NCBI GenBank assembly: GCA_000632805.1
Contig: CP007444.1
Coordinates: 5,258,772-5,322,771 of the forward strand
Direction: 5' to 3'
DNA: 64,000 nt
Source of the DNA: Dyella jiangningensis
GTDB taxonomy: Bacteria > Pseudomonadota > Gammaproteobacteria > Xanthomonadales > Rhodanobacteraceae
In this document: positions 1,059 to 4,262 of the stretch, piece after piece
Numbering within the stretch: the first letter of the stretch is position 1
Layout of the letters: every line of letters begins with the position of its first letter
The notes under the pieces: generated by a model
Seen by the model: only the letters and a program-made list of their open reading frames with translations
Told to the model about the DNA's origin: nothing
Databases searched by the model: none
Translations under genes and position numbers: made by a program

Positions 1059-1337
1059 TCAGCGATTGGCAAGCTCAGCGTTTAGGCAGGGTGCACCGTC
1101 GTCGTCCATACGATCGGCGTCCAGGTCTTGGCGGTTTTTGTTGGACTCCAGCAAATCGATCTTCGGCACGACCTCACTTCGTCGTGCTGTAGCCTTGGCT
1201 CGCGGCGATGCCACCGATGCGTCGTACCCCGGAAACCAGCGATTGCGCTGCTCGTTGTCTGCAGCCTCCGAAAGGGGCTGGAAGTGCAGCTTATGAGGGT
1301 GGAAGTAGAGCGAATTCGTTTGATTGATGATGTACAT
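1059..1337 (-). CDS. YFxP...RW.PGY small protein, copy C
   Basis: This encodes 92 aa and is the most diverged of three small paralogues in the window (others at 1513-1740 and 4074-4262). The shared part is near the N-terminus: YFHPHKL, then RNRWFPGYDASV, matching YFIPPR and RWLPGYYSAV of the other two. The C-terminal half is charged and unrelated to the others. The ATG at 1337 is chosen because it follows GAGG and sits at the same distance from leader C as the starts of the other copies. It has no signal peptide or TM segment. Function is unknown. It may be a small stress-type protein whose control lies in the leader (inference). Confidence 0.55.
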   Translation of the reverse strand: MYIINQTNSLYFHPHKLHFQPLSEAADNEQRNRWFPGYDASVASPRAKATARRSEVVPKIDLLESNKNRQDLDADRMDDDGAPCLNAELANR

Positions 1338-1457
1338 GGAGTTGCCTCGAGTGTCGACCTGCATCCTTCAGGTCGTAAGCAAGCGCTAGCCCGCGGCTCC
1401 GGCCAAGGCGGAGAAAACTCAGAGGCCTTGCAAGAAAACTACAGCTAGTCTGAGGCA
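1338..1457 (-). promoter_or_regulatory. Structured 5' leader, copy C
   Basis: Stem-loop I pairs CTCCG (1397-1401) with CGGAG (1409-1413). Stem-loop II pairs 1379-1384 with 1389-1394 (GCGGGC/GCTTGC read on the minus strand, with two G-U pairs). Stem-loop III pairs 1355-1361 with 1369-1375 (CGACCTG/CAGGTCG). The Shine-Dalgarno-like GAGG follows stem III directly. Order and spacing match copies A, B and D. The block starts at a TGCCTCAG motif equivalent to GCGCCTCA in the others. Confidence 0.65.
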
Positions 1458-1512
1458 TTCCGGAGCGGGTCTAACGAAGCCCCGGTGCACGATCAACATG
1501 CGCTTTGTTCTG

Positions 1513-1740
1513 TTACGCCGCTGTAAGGTGTCGCCAGGATGCTGGCCCGACTTTCTTCGAAGTCGCGCCTACCGGTTGCTCACCTGCTTCCACGTGCGCC
1601 AGCACTCTCAACCATCGAATTGAGCTGAGATCTACGATCTCCTCGCGCACCACGTAGACAGCGCTGTAATAGCCAGGAAGCCACCGATCGGGGCGTTGGC
1701 GGTCATAGAGCCTGGGAGGAATGAAGTACGTGCCGTCCAT
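1513..1740 (-). CDS. YFxPPR...RWLPGYYSA small protein, copy A
   Basis: This encodes 75 aa starting MDGTYFIPPRLYD. It shares YFIPPR, RWLPGYYSA and a following acidic/hydrophobic stretch with copy B at 4074-4262, and more weakly with copy C. The ATG at 1740 is used because AGGTGA lies before it and because the leader upstream aligns with the leaders of the other copies, all ending at the equivalent ATG. The C-terminus (GATSKKVGPASW) is basic. It is probably cytoplasmic. I do not recognise a characterised family. The three dispersed paralogues, in both orientations, suggest old duplications together with their promoters and leaders. Confidence 0.65.
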   Translation of the reverse strand: MDGTYFIPPRLYDRQRPDRWLPGYYSAVYVVREEIVDLSSIRWLRVLAHVEAGEQPVGATSKKVGPASWRHLTAA

Positions 1741-1860
1741 AAATTCACCTGGAGTGTTAGCTCGCAACAAGCGAGCGTAGGCGGACCGCAGTCCGCAACT
1801 CCAGCAAAAACCGGAGATGACTCAAAGGGCGTCAGGGAAGGTGTCGCGCGATTGAGGCGC
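1741..1860 (-). promoter_or_regulatory. Structured 5' leader, copy A
   Basis: Stem-loop I: CTCCAGC 1799-1805 with CCGGAG 1811-1816. Stem-loop II: GCGGAC 1781-1786 with GTCCGC 1791-1796, a perfect 6-bp stem with a 4-nt loop. Stem-loop III: GCTCGC 1760-1765 with GCGAGC 1771-1776, perfect with a 5-nt loop. Similarity to copy B continues about 30 nt further upstream (AGCGCTGA near 1881-1889, at the same spacing), so a shared promoter probably lies there. Confidence 0.75.
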
Positions 1861-2167
1861 GTGGAACGAGTGTCAGAAGATTCAGCGCTCGACGAGCGTG
1901 CACCACTTAGCGTGATGAGGATGTGCGGTCTGCCGACAGACGGCTGTGTCGGTTTTCGCCATTTCATGAGGCGTCGGCTTGGAAGTGTGCGTCACTACAT
2001 CGCCTACAACGGGCGAATGAAGGTCGCATCGTCTCGCATTGCCCATGAAGCGATGGAGCCCATCATGCCGGACTTATCGTCTGGCTCATTCAGGCACATC
2101 ACTCTCAGCTAACAACTACACGCGCATGCTGCTCGGGCGCCAGGAATGAAAGTCTCCTCCTTGGCAG
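1861..2167. other. Divergent intergenic region between leaders A and D
   Basis: About 300 bp separate the divergent leaders A and D. I see no supported gene. The open frame crossing it has no plausible start and overlaps leader A. It should hold the two divergent promoters. On the minus strand near 1866-1890 the stretch TTCTGACACTCG resembles the equivalent place upstream of leader C (TTAGACCCGCTC). Confidence 0.4.
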
Positions 2168-2285
2168 GCGTCTCAGTTACGCGGTCCTCTCCCTAACGCC
2201 ATCTGAGTTCTTCTCCGGTCTGCATCGGAGTCGCGGCTTCGGCCGCTCCAAATCCGCCATGCGGATCACTAATATAGGCAAATTC
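2168..2285 (+). promoter_or_regulatory. Structured 5' leader, copy D, before fasciclin gene
   Basis: Stem-loop I: CTCCG 2213-2217 with CGGAG 2226-2230. Stem-loop II: GCGGC 2233-2237 with GCCGC 2242-2246, closed by a TTCG loop (a C(UUCG)G tetraloop in RNA). Stem-loop III: ATCCGC 2252-2257 with GCGGAT 2261-2266. AGG before the ATG follows stem III. The stems match those of copies A-C in order and spacing but differ in sequence, and the downstream gene is unrelated to theirs. Confidence 0.75.
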
Positions 2286-2738
2286 ATGTCCAATCATGAT
2301 TCCAACACTTCTCGCGTTCCTGGCAAGAACATCGTCGATACAGCAGCCGCCAACGGCTCCTTCCATACGCTTGGCAAGGCTCTCGAAGCGGCCGAGCTCA
2401 CCAACGTCCTGAAGGGCACAGGCCCTTACACGGTGTTTGCGCCGACGGATGCGGCATTCGAAAAGCTTCCCACGGGCACGCTGGAAAACTGGCTGAAGCC
2501 GGAAAACAAGGCGGAATTGATCTCCGTACTGAAGTACCACGTGCTGCCGGGCCGGGCATCGGTCGTTGAGGTCGGGAAACTGACCGCGCCGAAGATGCTG
2601 CAGGGACAGACTGCACCGATCACGAAGGACGGTGACAAGCTCCGCATCGGCGGCGCCACCATCACGGGGCCGGACATTACCTCGAGCAACGGCATCATCC
2701 ATGCGATCGATGCGGTCATCGTGCCCACCAAGCACTAA
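2286..2738 (+). CDS. Fasciclin (FAS1) domain protein
   Basis: This encodes 150 aa, essentially one FAS1 domain. The first conserved FAS1 segment is GPYTVFAPTDAAFEKLP (about residues 46-62), followed by a LKYHVLPGR segment (about 83-91), and the second is NGIIHAIDAVIVP near the end. FAS1 domains mediate adhesion or bind small ligands and are often secreted. This protein has no obvious signal peptide from the ATG at 2286, nor from the alternative upstream frame start at 2259, so its location is uncertain. The start at 2286 fits the end of leader D. Neighbours are small unknown genes. Family assignment is secure, role is not. Confidence 0.85.
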   Translation: MSNHDSNTSRVPGKNIVDTAAANGSFHTLGKALEAAELTNVLKGTGPYTVFAPTDAAFEKLPTGTLENWLKPENKAELISVLKYHVLPGRASVVEVGKLTAPKMLQGQTAPITKDGDKLRIGGATITGPDITSSNGIIHAIDAVIVPTKH

Positions 2739-2823
2739 CTGACAGGATCTTGTGGCGGGGTCCGCCCCGCCACAAGACTCCATAGGGATGGGATGGCGTC
2801 GGATGACACTTGCATGGAAGCGG

Positions 2824-3300
2824 CTAGTGCCGGGAATGCGGCCCTAGGGCGTCACTACCTCTCGTGGCACAAATGGCTCGCTCGACATCAACGGCATAGC
2901 CGGTGCCGTAATCCGGCCACAAGAGCGGATTTTCAATGAGTACCCCAGCATCCTGCATTTCAATGGATGTCGCGCCAACGAGTTCCATGAGATGTCGAAC
3001 ATCCTCAACAGGCATTTCATCGTCCAATTCCACCGTAACCACGGTATGGCCCATCTGCGCCGGTCCGGGAAGATGGCTTGGTGATCGAATTTCCGATGCT
3101 TTCTGGCCTTCTCGGTGGCCCTGATGACTGATATGGGACACAACCGATGTCGGCGCACTTGAACTGGCGGCCGAGTTTCCTACGCTCTCATCCACGCAAG
3201 CCTGCACATGTGCGTGTCGCACGCCCCTTGCCAACAGCTTGTTGATGACAGACGCGGCTGCAAACTGACTATCAAATTTGGCAACAATGAGGTTGGACAT
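2824..3300 (-). CDS. Hypothetical two-part protein, possible stress-protein fold
   Basis: This encodes 158 aa. The N-terminal third starts MSNLIVAKFDSQFAAASVI and has an alpha/beta look (strand, helix, then RHAHVQACV). A flexible Ser/His/Gln-rich linker with HISHQGHREGQ occupies about residues 46-80. A second part (TVVTVELDDEMPVEDV, then a helix and VGATSIEM) looks like another beta-alpha-beta unit. This pattern recalls general stress protein 17M/YflT-like proteins, but that is inference only. It has no signal peptide or TM segment. It is convergent with the fasciclin gene, and its upstream region does not contain the three-hairpin leader. Confidence 0.65.
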   Translation of the reverse strand: MSNLIVAKFDSQFAAASVINKLLARGVRHAHVQACVDESVGNSAASSSAPTSVVSHISHQGHREGQKASEIRSPSHLPGPAQMGHTVVTVELDDEMPVEDVRHLMELVGATSIEMQDAGVLIENPLLWPDYGTGYAVDVERAICATRGSDALGPHSRH

Positions 3301-3480
3301 ACGCTGATATCTCCGTTGGCAACACCTGCAGCCATGCTACGTCTTCGCCTGGAATCGTTCCGTGAGAGCTTCCTTACGCGTACCGGTAGGCGAAAAACCT
3401 GACGACGTGCTGCGCAACGACGGCTGGACATCCTGTTAATGCATGGACGGCAACACGACTTCGGATTACTGAGGTGAGCC

Positions 3481-3711
3481 ATGACCACGGATCCACATCT
3501 AAGCTCCAACCACCTTCTAAGGGACTTTGATGTTCTGCTCGATCAGCATCAACGAGTGCAGAAGGAGAACGATTTGCTGCGCATTGAGCTGATGCGTCAC
3601 CCCTCGGGTGCCATGCAGATCCGTTCGGTAGAGCGATCCCTTGGGCGGGCCTACCGCGATATCCACAGTGAACCGGGTGGCATCGCCAGCGCAGCCTATT
3701 CAGTTGAATGA
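3481..3711 (+). CDS. Small hypothetical helical protein (76 aa)
   Basis: GAGGTGAGCC directly before the ATG at 3481 gives a strong ribosome-binding site. The product is hydrophilic with a probable amphipathic or coiled helix over residues 10-40 (DVLLDQHQRVQKENDLLR) and a Gly/Ala/Ser-rich C-terminus. No family is recognised. It is divergent from the gene ending at 2824 and shares the upstream gap 3301-3480 with it. Confidence 0.6.
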   Translation: MTTDPHLSSNHLLRDFDVLLDQHQRVQKENDLLRIELMRHPSGAMQIRSVERSLGRAYRDIHSEPGGIASAAYSVE

Positions 3712-3955
3712 GTTCATGTCATGGGCATGGGTCGGGCGGGCCATTGAACTCCACGAAACCGCTTAAAGCTCACATTTCTAGCACTCGATTGCTGTTGGGC
3801 GCTTAGCGCTTTGCGAACGCTGTAGCAAAGCCCCATCGCTACGGATGCATCTTGAATGTTGCCCTTAGCCCTCTTGCTTCAGGCGCATCACACACTGGTG
3901 TAACACGATCAGGTGCATGATAGTGAAGCGCTGAGTTCACCCAGACTCGCTGTAC

Positions 3956-4073
3956 GCGCCTCAGCCGCTCGGCCCCAACTCTGACGCCACTGAGCTGTCT
4001 CCGGCTTTGCTGGAGTTGCAGGCTATTGCCTGCCTACGCCCGCGCAATGCGAGCCAATACTCGGGGCAACATC
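3956..4073 (+). promoter_or_regulatory. Structured 5' leader, copy B
   Basis: Stem-loop I: CTCCGGC 3999-4005 with GCTGGAG 4009-4015. Stem-loop II: GCAGGC 4018-4023 with GCCTGC 4028-4033, perfect with a TATT loop. Stem-loop III: GCCCGC 4038-4043 with GCGAGC 4049-4054, one mismatch. It starts GCGCCTCAG like copies A and D, and AGCGCTGA at 3927-3934 lies at the same distance upstream as in copy A. The remaining part of the 3712-3955 gap holds no gene I can support. Confidence 0.75.
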
Positions 4074-4262
4074 ATGAACGCCATGTATTTCATCCCGCCC
4101 AGGCCCTACGAGGGCCAAGAAGCCAATCGTTGGCTATCTGGCTATTACAGCGCCTTCTACATGATGCTCCGCAAAATCGCTGATGTTGACAGGGATAGGA
4201 AGCCGCAAGAGCGACTGCGCGTAACGGTGGCGAGAAGAACAGCGCCTACAAGAAGCTCCTGA
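4074..4262 (+). CDS. YFxPPR...RWLSGYYSA small protein, copy B
   Basis: This encodes 62 aa beginning MNAMYFIPPRPYEG, with RWLSGYYSAFY matching copy A (RWLPGYYSAVY). After about residue 35 the two diverge, and copy B becomes very basic (RKPQERLRVTVARR) and ends early, possibly through an old frame change. The start at 4074 is preferred to the in-frame ATGs upstream because it matches the other copies. No signal peptide is present. Function is unknown. Confidence 0.6.
   Translation: MNAMYFIPPRPYEGQEANRWLSGYYSAFYMMLRKIADVDRDRKPQERLRVTVARRTAPTRSS

Follow-up and report, generated by a model that had tools for sequence, protein, structure and literature searches.

A structured 5′ leader preceding fasciclin genes and small orphan genes appears to form an undescribed RNA family in two families of one bacterial order

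The 64-kb stretch of DNA analyzed here (the window; G000:C1:206768-270767) was found to contain four copies of a predicted structured mRNA leader, each of which directly precedes the Shine-Dalgarno (SD) sequence and start codon of an open reading frame (ORF). The genes, designated together with their leaders as A, B, C, and D, encode small orphan proteins (A, B, and C) and a fasciclin-domain protein (D). An initial annotation, made from the letters of this DNA, had placed such leaders before the ATG codons at 1337, 1740, 2286, and 4074; all four were located there with the common architecture described and with the quoted stem arms, including GCGGC-TTCG-GCCGC of leader D. It was silent on the location of leaders C and A on the - strand. 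The GCG(C/T)CTCA start and the CTGAG or TTGAG motif that it listed are present as well, but they are the two arms of one further stem, here called P1, which had not been recognized. Its stems I, II, and III are denoted P2, P3, and P4. A promoter-like block and a hairpin region (P0), both upstream of P1, had been overlooked. The unit is larger than the one first described and consists of the promoter-like block, P0, P1, P2-P4, the SD sequence, and the ATG. Genes A and B are related (50% identity across 42 residues), and close relatives of gene A are found in two named records, Dyella sedimenti N-S-14 and Dyella sp. EPa41.

The distribution of the leader was determined using three models. R1 is a covariance model built on 16 leaders, the four of the window among them; R2 is a model of the promoter-like block; and R3 is a broadened model, built on 13 leaders of both bacterial families that carry the element, with P0 added. 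The coordinates of the features are presented in Table 1.

Table 1. Leaders, promoter-like blocks, and host genes. Positions are those of the window unless a locus handle (L) is given; gene-type letters A to H are our own labels.
Feature	Position	Strand	Basis
Leader C, from P1 to the ATG	1462 to 1338, ATG 1337	-	R1 match, 93.3 bits, E 4e-28
Promoter-like block of C	1486..1533	-	R2 match, 39.2 bits; 19/20 template letters
Gene C, 92-residue orphan protein (MYIINQTNSLYF...)	1059..1337	-	ORF; no Pfam match
Leader A; P1 is CTCAA/TTGAG	1864 to 1741, ATG 1740	-	R1 match, 110.1 bits
Promoter-like block of A, degenerate remnant	1886..1933	-	12/20 template letters; no R2 match at E <= 2
Gene A, 75-residue orphan protein (MDGTYFIPPRLYD...)	1513..1740	-	ORF; no Pfam match
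Promoter-like block of D	2092..2139	+	R2 match, 37.0 bits; 18/20 template letters
Leader D, upstream of the fasciclin gene	2164-2285, ATG 2286	+	R1 match, 121.3 bits, E 4.7e-37
P1 of D, CTCAG 2172-2176 and CTGAG 2203-2207	2172..2207	+	read from the sequence; pairs counted
P2 of D (stem I), CTCCGGT / ATCGGAG	2213..2230	+	read from the sequence; covariation
P3 of D (stem II), GCGGC-TTCG-GCCGC	2233..2246	+	read from the sequence; covariation
P4 of D (stem III), ATCCGC / GCGGAT	2252..2266	+	read from the sequence; covariation
Gene D, 150-residue fasciclin-domain protein	2286..2738	+	Pfam PF02469, E 1.7e-32
Promoter-like block of B, weaker	3883..3930	+	R2 match, 18.7 bits; 15/20 template letters
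Leader B	3952-4073, ATG 4074	+	R1 match, 104.8 bits
Gene B, 62-residue orphan protein	4074..4262	+	ORF; no Pfam match above cut-off
Block before H-type small proteins (RRQELLAAQDKR...), no R1-detectable leader	L176 2254-2289; L180 2136-2165; L082 2609-2645; L073 5509-5551		
Block close before a small CxxC zinc-ribbon-like protein, short leader	L178 2270-2304; L090 5593-5634		

An unfiltered search of the 64 kb using R1 returned exactly four leaders (E 4.7e-37 to 4e-28, 93-121 bits), and the next match had an E-value of 0.12; as training rows the four owe their E-values to the construction of the model, which does not apply to the absence of other matches. At E <= 0.01, R1 matched 23 of the 147 genomes searched in the window's family, in 10 of 26 genera; the weakest few are likely due to chance, and L091, L093, L094, and L095 (E 0.003-0.01) were counted as such. 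A loose pattern search of 20 genomes of the genus returned true copies together with chance matches. Within an order-wide sample, 7 of 250 genomes gave R1 matches; two of the seven belong to a second family and have the match upstream of a fasciclin gene. From the Dyella records and general knowledge, we take the window's family to be the Rhodanobacteraceae and the second family to be the Xanthomonadaceae. A search of the order for fasciclin proteins gave matches in 102 of 200 genomes, and when the upstream DNA of 21 fasciclin loci was read, the leader was visible by position in seven (L118, L119, L120, L121, L122, L126, and L138); the proteins at the other loci have export-signal-like starts, and no leader was visible there by eye. 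R3 was found to match 66 of 297 second-family genomes, which represent 22 of 54 genera and carry as many as 3 copies each. A class-wide search gave, the window's genome aside, a match in 1 of 273 genomes with an E-value of 9.5e-4, which is about chance level. Rfam 15 gave no match in the window at the gathering scores and none at E <= 5 between 1000 and 4500, in agreement with the initial statement that no described family resembles the leader, and no paper on it was found in the literature searched, which largely excluded subscription papers. The leaders appear to be an undescribed family of structured 5′ untranslated regions (UTRs) that occurs in two bacterial families of the same order.

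The base pairing of the leaders was evaluated on two alignments. A7 holds 55 distinct rows, five of which come from the second family or L126; it was built from 36 sources, with L038, L080, L089, L090, L091-L095, L119, L186, and L189 left out. A9 is the second-family alignment of 81 distinct rows, or 78 after the rows of L267, L268, and L269 were dropped. The two have three leaders in common (G269, G202, and G183 contig 1). For the four leaders of the window alone, RNAalifold predicted 27 pairs. Both bases have changed in 8 of these: the CTCAG/CTGAG stem with its inner extension holds 2, stem II another 2, and stem III or its immediate surroundings 4. In the 81 rows of A9, 91.9% of 2128 cells pair and 306 are changed on both sides, compared with 85.2 (standard deviation 10.0) after shuffling; in A7, 94.4% of 1301 cells pair and 142 are changed on both sides, compared with 47.3 (standard deviation 7.2). 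None of 500 shufflings reached the observed number in either case, and sliding the partners by 1-3 columns reduced pairing to 28-43% in both alignments.

Covariation was also measured against a phylogeny-aware null, our own R-scape-like re-implementation in which columns were re-evolved independently on a FastTree tree. On the 78 rows of A9, 15 of 28 helix pairs pass, and these lie in P0, P2, and P4; among all 11026 column pairs, 3 pass, all of them helical, and helical pairs make up 12 of the best 20. On A7, 4 of 24 helix pairs pass (one in P2, one in P3, and two in P4). The strand energies of P2, P3, and P4 were better than those of every simulation (0 of 150 as good for each, and 0 of 400 for each of them and for P0 in the second family). 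Because of these covariation and strand-energy results, P0 (in the second family), P2, and P4 are supported, and P3 less clearly; in these hairpins the shape is kept while the letters change. Of the 78 A9 rows, 45 have a C(UUCG)G loop in P3, and the reverse complement, CCGAAG, is absent from all 78 of them and from all 55 A7 rows; this strand bias fits an RNA read from the strand of the leader. The selected RNA structure that was first claimed for the window is borne out by the both-side changes across the leaders and by the covariation in the second family, and the covariance model proposed as a check does find further copies in related genomes, with compensatory changes present.

P1 is conserved rather than covarying. 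Its sequence (CUCAG, GCG, a loop that is pyrimidine-rich in many rows, CGC, and CUGAG) is conserved in both families, and CTCAG/CTGAG is near-invariant on A7 and A9; one pair shows a GC-to-AU exchange in 5 of 55 A7 rows. The covariation of P0 is seen in the second family only. When the 36 nucleotides before P1 were folded for 14 leaders of the window's family, z-scores of -2.82 to +0.45 were obtained, and a P0 hairpin is supported by these predictions for some of the leaders only.

The promoter-like block is a rigid DNA sequence, TNAC-N7-TAAC-N8-GCGCA, that lies upstream of P0. At least 11 of its 12 letters are present at 62 of 77 second-family leaders (A9) and at 47 of 57 leaders of the first set (A7), compared with 0.13% and 0% of shuffled sequences, respectively. 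Among the 62 leaders, the distance from the block to the start of the model is nearly fixed, at 9 in 50 cases, 7 in 11, and 10 in 1. Within the window, leaders C and D have a clear block, B has a weaker one, and only a degenerate form remains at A. At L083, the stretch between the block and P1 is 9 nucleotides rather than 40 and is about 30 nucleotides shorter, so P1 would lie near the expected start of the transcript. In 24 genomes, the R2 matches listed with an E-value below 1e-4 fall only at places with a leader. Fifteen weaker matches from among those listed were inspected: 4 precede H-type genes, 2 zinc-ribbon genes, 1 a G-type gene, 1 an E-type gene, and 1 an unplaced ORF of 65 residues (L175), and 6 (L080, L177, L179, L181, L182, and L183) were judged chance-like, those of L179, L181, and L183 being one conserved stretch that is coding-like in appearance. 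The G-type and the E-type gene have a weaker block and no leader detectable by R1. Since the block precedes other small genes that lack an R1-detectable leader, the regulon may be wider than the leader, as judged from sequence.

An ORF lies downstream of nearly all leader rows. Fasciclin genes follow 67 of the 81 distinct rows of A9 (66 recognized by signature, including broken ones, plus L226), SOUL-type genes follow 5, two of them checked by Pfam, and genes for a small RGETR protein follow 2. Row L234 precedes an unrelated longer ORF that is dehydrogenase-like in appearance, row L254 precedes an apparent tail of a broken fasciclin gene, the host genes of L261 and L264 are ambiguous, and L267-L269 are probably false. 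The host genes of the 55 A7 rows are fasciclin (34; 31 by signature plus L029, L032, and L086), C-type (13), A/B-type (6), E-type (1), and G-type (1). The leader had been described as a portable unit, and this holds, in that it ends at ORFs of unrelated kinds; the fasciclin gene, first thought to be the odd host, is instead the commonest one (67 of 81 and 34 of 55 rows). Fasciclin is thus taken as the usual host gene, with the small orphan genes apparently adopting the leader secondarily. Copies at small genes often adjoin a fasciclin gene, several of them divergently, and the block and leader may thus have been duplicated locally as one unit.

Second-family leaders before genes of the SOUL heme-binding type were found at L260, L262, L265, L224 (1669-1814), and L214 (2265-2402). 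At L271, a fasciclin gene comes after the SOUL gene. In one relative, genes for a peroxidase and for Hsp20 were found close to a SOUL gene that carries the leader and has a fasciclin gene downstream. The genome of the window has a second leader-bearing fasciclin gene (L029, G000:C1:2742109-2742677), whose end is altered and whose match contains one in-frame TGA; a weak promoter-like block and a G-type gene at 2744870 lie nearby. Broken fasciclin genes with leaders were found at L254, L251, and L032 (7762). The leader at L254 adjoins what appears to be the 3′ tail of such a gene, and the leader unit can therefore outlive its gene.

Starting from what the computation shows, namely the unit of block and leader with its pairing, distribution, and host genes, we consider the best explanation to be that the leader is a cis-acting 5′ UTR in which the conserved P1 is read by a trans-acting factor that sets translation or stability; this reading is given a probability of about 0.5. 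The block would be a promoter with an activator or sigma factor site, and the mRNA would begin at or near hairpin P0. The UTR would then fold into P0, P1, P2, P3, and P4, with the SD sequence a few nucleotides before the ATG. P1, in which the sequence itself is kept, would be the likely recognition site, and a trans factor (an RNA-binding protein or a small RNA) reading it would raise or lower translation or the lifetime of the mRNA. The other hairpins would position P1 and protect the 5′ end.

Several results weigh against this explanation. A7 and A9 are alignments fitted to models; over all column pairs of A7 none passes, and no single pair of P3 passes on A9. With a structure-blind MAFFT alignment (59 rows, after 3 of 62, L089_3071, L090, and L092, were dropped), 0 of 7140 pairs were significant, the best two being P4 pairs. 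P1 barely beats simulation (5 of 150, 67 of 1500, and 31 of 400 as good), the leader at L088 has no CTCAG arm, and some of the predicted folds of the full UTR lack P1. The predicted accessibility of the SD sequence is mixed, ranging from 0.13 to 0.76 across the 14 leaders folded at 37 °C. Because P1 hardly covaries, its conservation could be at the level of DNA. The letters of P1 would then serve as a second operator or a transcription-initiation element and the hairpins would be incidental, as the near-invariant CTCAG/CTGAG and the fixed distance of the promoter-like block would allow. We regard this as most improbable, since the compensatory changes in P0, P2, P3, and P4 and the strand-specific UUCG loop need RNA.

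A leader that senses nothing was also considered. The hairpins would guard the 5′ end from decay of the RNase E type and insulate the ribosome site, which is consistent with P0, P2, and P4 being kept as shapes and not as sequence, with the UUCG loops, and with a leader that travels with the promoter-like block. Long, hairpin-rich 5′ UTRs of the cspA (cold-shock) and ompA types, which are possible stabilizers and occur at more than one gene, offer a possible likeness; Rfam gave no match to any family. The sequence of P1 is, however, conserved across two families beyond the need of a passive stem, and a purely passive stabilizer is rather unlikely.

Riboswitch-type leaders are conserved, structured 5′ UTRs before the SD sequence, in which mutually exclusive pairing with the ribosome site is possible. 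The leader resembles them on the first count and may do so on the second, but its host genes are unrelated and share no common metabolite, and its conserved unpaired letters lie mainly in and around P1 rather than in a junction core. In the window's family, a two-state translational switch can be drawn in which the 3′ arm of P1 (GCC..CUGAGU) pairs with ACUC(A/G)AGGC immediately before and over the SD sequence to form helix S. Helix S would close a junction with P2, P3, and P4; the SD sequence would be free in the P1 state and hidden in the S state, and the choice would be made by a factor, by temperature, or by the order of folding. The S duplexes of 56 leaders (6 of 62 were skipped) have a mean energy of -9.1 kcal/mol, compared with -4.6 kcal/mol when shuffled, and none of 5000 reshufflings was as low, but with partners from other gene types the mean is still -8.6 kcal/mol. 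In the phylogeny-aware test, 18 of 1500 simulations were as good for 55 rows and 13 of 1500 for the 50 rows left when second-family rows and L126 are removed, and two control stretches were at chance level. Averaged by gene type, the difference in ensemble energy between the P1 and S states of 54 leaders is -1.1 to +2.2 kcal/mol, but single leaders span -11.3 to +10.3 kcal/mol. L088, from which CTCAG is gone, has kept CTGAGT and ACTCGAGGC. Against the switch, helix S is absent from the second family, where 190 of 400 simulations do as well, columns 62 and 213 do not covary, and the helix is lost in leader D of the window (3 pairs, -5.6 kcal/mol), which lacks the pre-SD ACTC motif kept in A, B, and C. 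The support for helix S is modest and limited to the window's family, and we find the switch unlikely.

Two other pairings were rejected. Pairing of the SD sequence with the 5′ arm of P1 was at chance level (reshuffling p 0.33; 577 of 1500 simulations, and 64 of 400 in the second family), as was its pairing with the P1 loop (1179 of 1500 and 149 of 400). Of the mechanisms first suggested, attenuation by a terminator is not supported. No run of at least five T residues occurs in the last 60 nucleotides of any of the 78 A9 or 55 A7 rows, which speaks to intrinsic terminators only. As regards a leader peptide, when ATG starts alone are counted and frames are left uncompared, 27 of 55 A7 and 21 of 78 A9 leaders have no ATG before the last 10 nucleotides. 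A classical thermometer is not favored: the SD sequence lies outside P1-P4, and its predicted unpaired probability shifts by 0.17 or less between 25 and 45 °C in 14 leaders. For the start codon of L084, the predicted shift over the same range is 0.33.

Another possibility is that the leader is additionally freed to work as a trans-acting small RNA by way of its pyrimidine-rich loops. The sX13 RNA of Xanthomonas is described as a free small RNA that acts through C-rich loops bearing CCCC/CCCCC motifs (PMC3771888). The leader is similar to sX13 as described there in being a row of stable hairpins from the same bacterial order, with the pyrimidine-rich P1 loop as a possible binding site, but it sits at the 5′ ends of genes and no CCCC/CCCCC motif is prominent in its consensus. 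The nearly constant presence of a downstream ORF and the lack of the T-runs mentioned above also argue against a freed RNA, which is very unlikely.

Two further observations concern the surroundings of the leaders. Behind gene C, a small gene (MTSISGKTTNGFTYE...) is found at 743-964 on the - strand; its relative at L088 has a leader of its own (50 bits in R1), minus the CTCAG arm. Positions 1-344987 of G000:C1, which include the window, are seemingly repeated at 5052005-5396991, so that the end of the contig equals its start. The first 3000 and the last 988 bases were compared and found to be identical to their partners, and the four leaders recur at the same offset. The repeat reflects either a circular assembly that was not trimmed or a genuine duplication of 345 kb, and it may explain the contamination estimate of 8.39%.

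A table of photooxidative-stress responses lists RSP_1409, a fasciclin gene of Rhodobacter sphaeroides, with log2 changes of 2.8 and 4.5 (PMC7074977), and two fasciclin genes of Mycobacterium kansasii appear with raised levels in a light-response table (PMC9861118). The likeness to RSP_1409 lies in a fasciclin gene with changes in a stress table, set beside one leader-bearing locus near peroxidase and Hsp20 genes; the passage with the table reports no leader of this kind (PMC7074977). By analogy, these tables and the peroxidase/Hsp20 neighborhood in one relative hint at oxidative or light stress as the signal.

The structured mRNA leader is already known as a kind; this family, its tie to a promoter-like block, and its spread before unrelated genes appear to be new within what was searched. 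A structured leader usually goes with a single gene family or a single metabolite. A more elaborate reading, in which a promoter-plus-RNA-switch cassette was copied before unrelated genes, with a leader that is bistable between P1 and helix S in one family and a post-transcriptional regulon of fasciclin, SOUL-type, and orphan genes, is tentative and on balance improbable; if true, it would represent a new class of bistable leader. The present results add a covarying RNA family that has no match in Rfam 15. Because the leader travels with the promoter-like block and precedes unrelated genes, the pair marks a regulon that includes orphan small proteins for which there was previously no handle, and, given a leader and promoter in common, a direct route is open to finding both the signal and the regulator of these proteins.

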